Assembly (NCBI RefSeq): GCF_964275005.1
Contig: NC_092694.1
Coordinates: forward strand, 31,938,467-32,002,466
Length of the DNA stretch: 64,000 bases
Source of the DNA: Diadema setosum
Lineage: Eukaryota > Echinodermata > Echinoidea > Diadematoida > Diadematidae
Direction: 5' to 3'
Positions 17,579 to 63,063 of the stretch are shown here, piece by piece. The notes below the pieces were generated by a model that was given only the letters and a program-made list of their open reading frames with translations, ran no database searches and was not told the origin of the DNA. Within the stretch, counting starts at the first letter, position 1. Each line of letters begins with the position of its first letter. A program made the position numbers and the translations under genes.

Positions 17579-18250
17579 TTAACTTGCGATCAAAAATCCC
17601 CGATTTATTCCACTTATCGGATCTCGGGTGTTCATCCTCCGATGCAGTTCCTCAGTTGGGATCCACACATCCTTATTTGGAATTGCGGTGTCAAGAAGAA
17701 GAAAGCGATCGCTGGGTTCATGATATGCCGCCAGTGGACTCACGTGTCCAGAACTGAAGAGTTTGTCATTCAAGATAAAGTCACATTTAAAGTTGACAAG
17801 CACGCCCTGTCGAGAGTCGGAGTGAGAGAGCGCCACCACCGATCTAGAACGGAAATCGTCGACACCACAACTGTCCGCGTAAAATCTCTCGCAGTGATTG
17901 AAAAGACCATGTTGGCGAAATAGCTCTTCGAGATCACTCAAGCTGGCGCCCTCTACAACCAATTTTTCGCTGCTCACCACTCGAGTTGTCTCATCGAAAG
18001 TAAACATGTTGGTATCTGAAAATGGAACGTCACTGACATCGCAAGCCTTTTGTTGCCGCTCATCCGGGTACTTCAGTCCGAAGTGGCGCGCACTCATGAG
18101 AAGAGCGGCCGTATGCACTCCGCAGTATCCACTCTTGCTTTGCTTGCTGAAGATCCGGACAAGTAAAGTCTGTTTGATGTTGGTCTCATTCAAAAGTCTT
18201 TGTCCCTCCGATAACTGAAGCGGAACTATCTGCTTCGATGTTGTTTCCAT
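17579..18250 (-). CDS. Phytochelatin-synthase-like enzyme, copy 1 (223 aa)
   Basis: Intact, intronless frame. I recognise the catalytic domain of phytochelatin synthase / glutathione gamma-glutamylcysteinyltransferase (papain fold, peptidase C83). The nucleophile is Cys43 in SGYCGVHTAALL. The other triad members are His169 in GHVSPLAAYH and Asp187 in RFLLLDTA. The 18-residue His-Asp spacing equals that of plant and cyanobacterial enzymes as I recall them. VDDFRS (130-135) and the C-terminal MNTRDPISG..RGFLIAS are family hallmarks. The family removes glycine from glutathione and can transfer gamma-Glu-Cys to another thiol, forming metal-binding peptides. The cysteine-rich C-terminal half of plant enzymes is absent. 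There is no signal peptide, so it is probably cytosolic. Start: the only upstream in-frame Met, matching the paralogues' length. AATAAA lies two bases after the stop. Hand-counted identity to copy 2 is about 65%. Confidence 0.93.
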   Translation of the reverse strand: METTSKQIVPLQLSEGQRLLNETNIKQTLLVRIFSKQSKSGYCGVHTAALLMSARHFGLKYPDERQQKACDVSDVPFSDTNMFTFDETTRVVSSEKLVVEGASLSDLEELFRQHGLFNHCERFYADSCGVDDFRSRSVVALSHSDSRQGVLVNFKCDFILNDKLFSSGHVSPLAAYHEPSDRFLLLDTAIPNKDVWIPTEELHRRMNTRDPISGINRGFLIAS

Positions 18251-19134
18251 GTTTTAAAGGTGTTCTCATACGATGTCGTCTATTGACGTAAAAACAGACA
18301 ATTCCAAAGTCATAGTCATCAGAAAAATGCCAGTACATATAGATTACAAACTCACTGTCATCATGATGCTGATGTTGATTATGATGAGCTGAAGAAACGA
18401 AACAAGCACGTTTGGCGAAATGAGTCAGTTACTTTATTTGACTCGGTAAAATATCTGTACTGTTTTTTTTGATACAGTATAGGTCTATTGAGCGCAAGAA
18501 AGAATGATGTTACAAAAGGCACTTGCCGTGATACACTGTCGTTATTGAGGGCAACCTTGTAGATTCATAAAGAATATCTCAATACACTTTGGAAATTTGA
18601 CGCACCCTGTGAATGTATCCAAACATTTGTGTTCTTGTTAGACAACATCAAGTGCAGTAAACTAAAATCTTATAATGTTCATCGAACGAAAGTCATCATT
18701 TTTAAAAACGTGTAACCTAGGTACCCATATATTATGATTTTCTTATGCAAAACAAAATAATCACATGTGTGTATGCTTACATATAAGTCACACACACACA
18801 CACACACACACTACACACTGCATATTGCAGGCTCACAAGCATTAACTAAAGAAAATCATGACTTGACCTTTGTGCTCCTCCCTCATACCGTCTCAAATTA
18901 ACGCGCAGTTTCGTAATATTTGATATATTCCAGTGAAGGGATAGTATATGCAAATTTCTGAATCTTTTCTTATCCTTGTACGTTCAGCCATCTTATACAT
19001 GGAGCTCTGCAGATGGCGGTGGTCTCTGGGAGGTTCTTCTCCAATTTTCAGATTATGACGTTCACTTTGTTGGGGTTCTTTCTTTACTTTTCGATATCTA
19101 GCATGGAAATAAACGTCATACACTGTACTGTGAA
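18251..19134. other. Upstream flank of enzyme copy 1
   Basis: This should contain the promoter of the minus-strand gene. A donor-like GTGAGT and an acceptor-like CAATAG just upstream of the start would allow a small 5'-leader intron, but neither is strong. (CA)n lies at 18788-18811. No other gene is seen. Confidence 0.4.
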
Positions 19135-19392
19135 ACCGTCTCTTTTCGGCTGATATTCGTTATTCAGAAGGTTCATTCTTTCGAAGATACACAAATTCAT
19201 ATGCTATAGATGTTCGTTACTCCGAAAATGAAACAGGGTTTGTTAATCCGAATATTATTGTGGCATTATGCCAAAGGATCCTTTATCCGAAAATGAAATA
19301 CGGTTCGCCAGTCCAAAGCTTCGACAGTATGAAGATGAAACAAGTCTGATCACTAACAAACCTTCTCAATAAAGAAACTTTCGGACTACAGG
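19135..19392. repeat. TTCCGAA-rich dispersed element, copy near enzyme gene 1
   Basis: Degenerate words of the type TTCGTTATTCCGAAGGTTC and their reverse complements recur many times, together with AAAATGAAACAGGG. The same composition and word set appear at 26786-27103, 36376-36680 and 39528-39759. The word is partly self-complementary. The copies are strongly diverged. Confidence 0.65.
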
Positions 19393-19510
19393 AACTTCAG
19401 GGGGAAAGGGAGTCTCCGGGGAGTCAAACAGTAATCCTCTTTTCGTTGCATCAATATTATATTATTTTGAATGTTTTGTTGCACTCCAAGGGAAATATGC
19501 CGGAATCTTA

Positions 19511-62094: not shown

Positions 62095-62280
62095 GTGTGT
62101 GTGTGTGTGTGTGTGTATGTGTGTGTGTATATATATATTTGTGTGAGGGAGAGAGAGGGAAGAATATATAATTATATTATATACATATATATATATATAT
62201 ATATATATATATATATATATATATATATATATATATATATATAAATATATCGAGAGAGAGAGAGAGAGAGAGAGAGAGTA
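62095..62280. repeat. Compound microsatellite (GT)n-(TA)n-(GA)n
   Basis: Three dinucleotide tracts in succession, immediately downstream of the fourth enzyme gene. Confidence 0.95.
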
Positions 62281-62403
62281 TGTTTGTGTGTGTGCGTGTG
62301 TGCTATGTTTGTTTTGTATTGCGTTGAGAGTCCCTCACCACACAGCAACGCCAAAACAACAAAGGGAATTAATGTATCCAACACTAGCAGCGGCTGGAGG
62401 TGT

Positions 62404-63063
62404 TCATCCAGTGATAATGTAACCCCTTCGAACAAAGACATCTGGATCGACCCCATTCATTTGCTTGAATATATCTTCCGTTTTGACCCACTCCTCCTGA
62501 CCGTCAAGCCACGTGTCCAGCAGCAGGAAGCGGTCACTCTGTTGATGATATGCTGCCAGCGGACTAAAATGGCCTACCTTGACCACTTTGTTACTCTGCC
62601 TCCAGTGATACTCGTAGTTGACCACGACCCCTTGGCTGGAATCCGTGTGTGAGAGCGCCGCCGTTGCTAGGGATCGGAACTCATCCACGTTGCTGTCGTC
62701 TGCGTGAACTCTCCTGGCGGGAATCTCAAAGGACTGGAAAAGGTCTTGGAGCTGTTTCAAAGTGGCTCCGACTTCGCGAACTCGTTCTTCGTCGAGGACC
62801 TTGGTCGTCTCAGGAAAGGAGAACAAATTGGTGTCCCTGTAGGGAACGTCGCTGACGTCACAGAGTGTCTGTTCCCGTTCCTCGGGGTATTTTTTCCCGA
62901 AGTAGCGCGCGCTCATGAGGAGTCCGGCGGTCTGTACTCCGCAGTATCCCATTGCGCGCTGCTTGCTGAAGATGCGGACTAAAAGTGTCTGTCTGATGGC
63001 CGTGTCGTTCCAAAGATTCTGACCGTCGGCAGAGTGCAGGGCTACCACATCTCCGGACTCCAT
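62404..63063 (-). CDS. Phytochelatin-synthase-like enzyme, copy 4 (219 aa)
   Basis: Intact intronless paralogue and the most divergent of the four. Triad: Cys41 (MGYCGVQT), His165 (GHFSPLAAYH) and Asp183 (RFLLLDTW). The residue after GV in the active-site motif is Gln where the others have His. The C-terminus (MNGVDPDVFVRRGYIITG) departs from the RDP.SG..RGFLIA pattern. CDVSDVPYRDTNLF and VDEFRS are retained. Ten bases upstream of the ATG is a good acceptor (CTTTCCTTTCTAG), so a 5'-leader intron is likely. Expected function as for copy 1, with possibly different substrate preference. It is separated from copy 3 by 25 kb dominated by repeats. Confidence 0.92.
   Translation of the reverse strand: MESGDVVALHSADGQNLWNDTAIRQTLLVRIFSKQRAMGYCGVQTAGLLMSARYFGKKYPEEREQTLCDVSDVPYRDTNLFSFPETTKVLDEERVREVGATLKQLQDLFQSFEIPARRVHADDSNVDEFRSLATAALSHTDSSQGVVVNYEYHWRQSNKVVKVGHFSPLAAYHQQSDRFLLLDTWLDGQEEWVKTEDIFKQMNGVDPDVFVRRGYIITG

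Follow-up and report, generated by a model that had tools for sequence, protein, structure and literature searches.

A multigene family of half-length PF05023 enzymes in the sea urchin Diadema setosum, probably glutathione-cutting peptidases rather than phytochelatin synthases

The locus and its genes

We examined a 64,000-nucleotide (nt) stretch of the genome of the sea urchin Diadema setosum (GCF_964275005.1, contig NC_092694.1, positions 31,938,467 to 32,002,466), called the window below, that carries four genes related to phytochelatin synthase. All four (DS1–DS4) are intact, single-exon genes on the minus strand, and each contains the motifs GYCG, GHxSPLAAYH and LLLDT, as an initial annotation of this DNA had described. 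One point is corrected for DS2: its open frame extends upstream to 25681 through an in-frame ATG and has 244 codons, or 223 from the conserved start. Protein identity to DS1 is 65% for DS2, the same value that had been obtained by hand count, 57% for DS3 and 52% for DS4. The genes, the catalytic codons of DS3 and the copies found outside the window are as follows (aa, amino acids; C10, the contig of the window).

17579..18250, minus strand: DS1, half-length PF05023 gene, 223 aa, stop codon TAA; Diadema antillarum orthologue P0002
24947..25618, minus strand: DS2, half-length PF05023 gene, 223 aa from the conserved start; database protein P0001
36799..37482, minus strand: DS3, half-length PF05023 gene, 227 aa; D. 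antillarum orthologue P0003
37354..37356, minus strand: codon of the DS3 catalytic Cys43 (AtPCS1 Cys56 position)
36982-36984 and 36928-36930, minus strand: codons of DS3 His167 and Asp185, the rest of the catalytic triad
62404..63063, minus strand: DS4, half-length PF05023 gene, 219 aa; D. antillarum orthologue P0004
past the window end on C10, minus strand: DS5 (L004), DS6 (L006) and DS7 (L001), further intact copies
C10:36.42-36.45 Mb, plus strand: DS8 (L007) and DS9 (L009), a second cluster, adjoining a relic

All four window proteins matched the PF05023 profile with 84.8–98.3 bits against a curated cut-off of 24.9 (E-values from 6.5e-24 to 4.5e-28), which rules them out as chance frames. 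The matches run from profile positions 5–10 to 210 of 210, and the frames end 4–10 residues beyond them. A search of the same proteins against NCBIfam matched none of the four. Membership in PF05023 is certain, and the C83 fold with its Cys-His-Asp context, recognized in the initial annotation from the motifs, is borne out.

The family across the genome

We searched the whole assembly (912,680,840 bases in 102 contigs) with PF05023. Ten places matched, every one on C10 (39,844,970 bases). Nine are intact copies above the cut-off, each of which can be read from ATG to stop, and one is a relic. Seven of the intact copies form a main cluster on the minus strand that spans about 78 kb (31.956–32.034 Mb of C10), with four inside the window. 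The database lists P0006 and P0017 as Diadema setosum proteins; they are letter for letter two of the extra C10 copies. The relic resembles DS9 in two stretches, one of 208 nt with 86% identity and one of 86 nt with 83% (14–17% divergence where aligned); it is broken into pieces in different frames, and its longest open stretch is 80 residues. The idea of a multigene family in an animal genome thus holds on a larger scale, with nine intact copies on one chromosome-sized contig and the window holding four of them.

Selection on the copies

Pairwise maximum-likelihood ratios of nonsynonymous to synonymous substitution (dN/dS) were 0.06–0.17 in all six pairs of window copies, well below 1, but these values are rough because fourfold sites differ by 0.58–0.68 across the same six pairs and are near saturation. 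Closer pairs in the genome (DS4–DS5, DS4–DS6 and DS8–DS9) gave 0.17–0.26, and the pair DS7–DS4 was saturated. All of these are pairwise estimates; the NG86 method returned no dS in three of the six window pairs and YN00 gave no estimate in any of them. When neutral substitution was simulated, frames were still open in 99 of 2700 cases at 15% divergence and in 6 of 2700 at 30%. That nine of the ten loci are open despite such rapid neutral decay speaks for function, and the relic indicates that a copy at these loci can decay. Together, these data indicate that the family is kept under purifying selection.

Age of the duplications

Database searches and a tree identified D. antillarum orthologues of DS1, DS3 and DS4 (listed above), DS6 (P0005) and DS8 (P0007); for DS2, DS5, DS7 and DS9 these searches gave no orthologue. 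Half-length proteins also occur in Lytechinus variegatus (P0018, 239 aa) and in L. pictus (P0020, 227 aa). P0018, together with P0016, joined DS4–DS6 inside the Diadema copies, with support of 99/93 in a 77-row tree and 94/89 in an 81-row tree. Forcing all 14 Diadema rows into one clade gave p = 0.03 in the approximately unbiased (AU) test, which is borderline and carries no correction for multiple testing. Recent duplication of the copies is ruled out by the divergence at fourfold sites in all six window pairs and by this borderline clade test.

The near-saturation of fourfold sites, the five D. antillarum orthologues and the Lytechinus protein that branches inside the Diadema copies argue that the duplications are old and common beyond Diadema. 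The Lytechinus branching and the result for the all-Diadema clade further suggest that at least some duplications are probably older than the split between Diadema and Lytechinus. The cluster of DS1–DS4 is larger and older than first described. Of the local expansion retained under selection that had been proposed for it, the retention under selection stands; the expansion is not merely local, with two clusters and old duplications shared beyond Diadema. We take Diadema and Lytechinus to belong to two groups, Aulodonta and Carinacea. On that assumption the family in sea urchins would date at least to the Triassic radiation. The available text of PMC8940180 places the origins of both groups in the Triassic.

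Sequence sets

The 77-row tree and the residue counts below used 30 bacterial, 28 canonical eukaryotic and 19 echinoid-type rows. The canonical rows were hand-picked (26 listed proteins plus P0028 and P0029). The bacterial rows comprised 10 from protein searches and 20 from 80 kept scan loci; a first tree had held 12 bacteria from protein searches, of which P0010 and P0012 were later removed as near-copies. P0015 and P0027 were removed before the 77-row tree and the counts; P0027 keeps Arg152, Lys185 and Tyr186 (AtPCS1 numbering), as judged by eye. The echinoid-type rows include P0016, P0019 and, in the 19-row set, P0022, and are grouped by type, not by known host. P0022 is a half-length database protein on a 1.2-kb contig; it has the shortened loop, is placed in the echinoid clan with a long branch and is excluded from the 18-row counts. 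The 81-row tree left out P0022, 18 of the 28 canonical rows and 9 of 32 new bacterial frames (6 repeats and 3 partial frames).

Catalytic site and second-substrate pocket

The Cys-His-Asp triad is present in 18/18 echinoid-type rows, or 19/19 counting P0022. An AlphaFold2 model of DS3 (mean predicted local distance difference test score 93.2) predicts the papain-like fold of Alr0975. The cyanobacterial enzyme Alr0975/NsPCS (Nostoc PCC 7120; PDB 2btw, 2bu3, 6th5, 6tho, 6tjl) is 30–35% identical to the urchin proteins and shares with them a single domain of about 220 aa that has neither the C-terminal half nor the four cysteines of canonical enzymes. The urchin copies differ from it in being multigene and animal, in having no N-terminal extension and in the loss of NsPCS Arg173, Lys206 and Tyr207, which correspond to AtPCS1 residues 152, 185 and 186. 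With the canonical enzyme (AtPCS1, Caenorhabditis elegans PCS-1, Lumbricus, Mytilus; EC 2.3.2.15) they share the PF05023 catalytic domain and the triad, but they lack the C-terminal half and Thr49, are gapped at the Arg183 position and fall in a separate tree clan. AtPCS1 Cys90, Cys91, Cys109 and Cys113 are found in 0, 0, 1 and 0 of the 18 echinoid-type rows, compared with 28, 28, 26 and 28 of the 28 canonical rows.

At the positions of the AtPCS1 second-substrate pocket, the echinoid-type rows keep Gln50 in 16/19, Arg152 in none of 19 and Gln157 in 2/19; Phe184 is found in 1/19 (with Tyr in two more), Lys185 in none and Tyr186 in 1/19. Counts at Gln157 and Arg183 vary with where the aligner places gaps. 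The 30 bacterial controls have Phe at position 184 in one row and Tyr in 26. The loops are also altered: loop 3 has 11–12 residues in all 14 Diadema rows versus 9 in 58/58 controls, and loop 4 has 8 residues in all 19 echinoid-type rows versus 9 in controls. In AtPCS1, mutating second-substrate residues abolishes or nearly abolishes phytochelatin synthesis, and K185R leaves 0.56% of the activity. D204 is kept in 19/19 echinoid-type rows and R211 in 18/19; these are presumably the gamma-Glu-binding pair (Asp225/Arg232 of Alr0975). Among themselves, the urchin copies also vary near the cleft and in the oxyanion residue.

A predicted reaction

We consider it probable that these genes form an old multigene family of half-length C83 cysteine peptidases that act on glutathione or its conjugates and are not phytochelatin synthases. 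The catalytic Cys would attack the Cys-Gly bond of gamma-Glu-Cys-X (glutathione or a glutathione S-conjugate), glycine would leave and a gamma-Glu-Cys acyl-enzyme would form. With the binding pocket for the second glutathione apparently lost, water (or another acceptor) would resolve the acyl-enzyme to gamma-Glu-Cys or its S-conjugate, and no phytochelatin would be made. Put most simply, we predict a cytosolic peptidase that takes glycine off glutathione or S-conjugates, the cytosolic location being suggested by the lack of an N-terminal extension. Cyanobacterial half-length enzymes mainly hydrolyse glutathione and its conjugates, according to the available part of PMC3101182.

The analysis itself shows the predicted fold, the triad, the gene number, the selection, the absence of acceptor residues and the old duplications, whereas the substrate, its hydrolysis and a possible part in the turnover of thiols or xenobiotics are inferred. 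As an enzymatic name, phytochelatin synthase is doubtful, and that part of the initial annotation finds no support here: the copies have no C-terminal half and no CC/CXXXC cysteines, and they are missing second-substrate residues on which AtPCS1 depends. In 937 nt of sequence preceding the nine genes there were 4 metal-response-element cores versus 4.5 expected, which is the chance level, and this sequence gives no pointer to metal control.

Several observations weigh against the peptidase reading. Arg occupies position 185 in 9/30 bacterial controls despite the effect of K185R, P0015 (excluded before the counts) has Asn at the Lys185 position by eye, and the 32 further bacterial frames keep Arg152 in 31, Lys or Arg at 185 in 27 and Tyr186 in 28, the exceptions being distant proteins. 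One of the bacterial frames with a PF05023-like sequence, the very divergent L125, has neither Arg152 nor Lys185; the loss is therefore not confined to urchins. The control set was hand-picked, and one scan pattern ends beside the loop (DV and A or N) and may favour standard pockets. The authors of the AtPCS1 work regard their acceptor-site assignment as tentative and indirect effects on the first site as possible, so that loss of the pocket might also affect the donor site. Finally, the oxyanion Gln is replaced by Arg in 3/14 Diadema rows (DS8, DS9 and DA8, the D. antillarum orthologue of DS8). Ordinary catalysis is hard to reconcile with this change, and in DS8 and DS9 catalysis may be altered or lost.

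Origin of the family

In the 77-row tree the canonical clan had support of 100/100 and the echinoid-type clan 95/97, and a quick 59-row tree agreed on separate canonical and echinoid-type clans. The 81-row tree, with more bacteria, gave the echinoid type 100/100, its bootstrap being incompletely settled. In the free 77-row tree, the echinoid type grouped with 28 of the 30 bacterial rows (92/69). A forced clade of 18 echinoid-type and 15 canonical animal rows was 54.2 log-likelihood units worse (AU p = 0.0001), whereas a forced clade of the echinoid type with all canonical eukaryotes was 0.4 units worse (AU p = 0.36). Given the latter value, a bacterial origin, though favoured by architecture, is unproven; the echinoid and canonical stems are both long.

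Profile scans of two phyla matched in 42/386 and 13/398 genomes, with the best-scoring matches kept as loci. Together with some loci obtained separately, we examined 33 loci and obtained 32 frames, 6 of which repeat sequences already in the set; there was no near donor among these 32. A genome scan for a bacterial donor with the Diadema profile matched 27 stretches and found no relatives. One IMG/VR scan for a viral carrier matched 7 stretches, likewise with no relatives, and shows little.

Canonical queries (Mytilus P0075 and Lingula P0124) matched only the half-length copies in the D. setosum genome. A PF03074 genome search did detect the spliced glutamate-cysteine ligase family, whose exon-sized matches numbered 17 and fell into two separate loci (C14:17.28-17.31 Mb and C16:5.41-5.44 Mb), so the absence of a canonical gene seems real. 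The canonical gene is probably absent from the assembly, as judged from the best candidates, which alone were scored. A PF09328 genome search for the C-terminal half, run without a positive control, gave no match. One possible though tentative history is that sea urchins lost the canonical gene and independently acquired an old bacterial-type half-length enzyme, which in the animal line retained its donor site and acyl-enzyme chemistry, had its acceptor site dismantled and radiated to at least nine copies as glutathione-conjugate peptidases (or gamma-Glu-Cys transferases with new acceptors).

Alternative explanations

The copies could be true phytochelatin synthases with a rebuilt acceptor site that serve in the detoxification of Cd, Zn, Cu or As. 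PF05023 membership and the intact triad fit this, as do the finding of no other phytochelatin synthase in this genome and the variation of pocket residues in some bacterial relatives, and half-length NsPCS was reported able to make PC2 (available text of PMC11314372). Since R152 and K185 are gone from all 19 rows and Y186 from 18 of them, and metal-response-element cores are at chance level, we regard it as unlikely. No likelier is that the enzymes have gone from glutathione altogether and, keeping fold and triad, act as peptidases or acyltransferases on another gamma-glutamyl or isopeptide-linked substrate with a new acceptor. The re-sizing of both acceptor loops (3 and 4) would agree with this, and the cleft and oxyanion differences among copies are as expected for differing substrates; the near-complete retention of D204 and R211, the presumed gamma-Glu-binding pair, speaks against it.

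That the genes are intronless retrocopies of a canonical animal phytochelatin synthase is suggested by their single exons and by the canonical enzymes of other animal phyla, but it is very improbable: the CC and CXXXC cysteines are missing, the genome yielded no canonical gene as a source, and the test of a clade that joins them to 15 canonical animal rows rules it out, under a model in which long branches could mislead. Bacterial contamination or decaying pseudogenes, which the intronless, bacterial-type sequence might bring to mind, have the least to recommend them and are scarcely credible, given a 39.8-Mb contig, the Lytechinus relatives and the excess of open frames over the neutral simulation. 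Contamination is ruled out by the orthologues in another urchin. Glutathione-cutting peptidases are thus the explanation that we prefer.

Other features of the window

5704-6096, minus strand: 130-aa frame without a match in a Pfam search
13593-13667, minus strand: isolated tRNA-Thr(GGT), found by ARAGORN and Rfam
46264-48857 and 55353-57042: 160–190-bp repeat family, oppositely oriented on the two sides of a stretch of several kb
47751-48335 and 49606-50185: direct duplication, copies spaced by 1.85 kb, two aligned pieces 96–98% identical
53109-55291: tandem array of eight copies of a 273-bp unit, 94% matches

We take the 130-aa frame to resemble the tail of a non-long-terminal-repeat reverse transcriptase. 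The tRNA-Thr(GGT) could be either a gene or a repeat that derives from a tRNA. The 160–190-bp repeat family includes 305-nt arms that are 97% complementary and 10,169 nt apart.

Significance for sea urchins and for the enzyme family

Half-length enzymes are also found in extremophile green algae, where they are attributed to horizontal transfer, with cyanobacteria nearest (Olsson et al., 2017, as cited in the available text of PMC11314372). Like the urchin copies, these are eukaryotic half-length PF05023 proteins of bacterial type, compared here by description alone; the sea-urchin clan differs in its long stem and in having no near donor among the frames examined. In animals, Lumbricus was described as the first then known with two phytochelatin synthase genes, and Strongylocentrotus purpuratus Sp1 and Sp2 are listed as phytochelatin synthases in a tree (both in the available text of PMC3838358). 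Sp1 and Sp2 may be members of the urchin half-length family. A comparison of sea-urchin metal-response gene counts gives, in its available text, no detail on this family (PMC5601910), and none of the titles and abstract openings listed in our literature searches describes it in sea urchins.

The Lytechinus proteins P0018 and P0020 carry the database name glutathione gamma-glutamylcysteinyltransferase-like, under which they would be taken for phytochelatin synthases that detoxify metals. Should the acceptor site truly be gone, the synthase label would not fit the sea-urchin proteins, and their family would serve as a natural experiment in which one half-reaction of the enzyme is separated from the other. 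The family also makes it possible to ask whether, in an animal lineage, an enzyme of bacterial type took the place of the canonical one.
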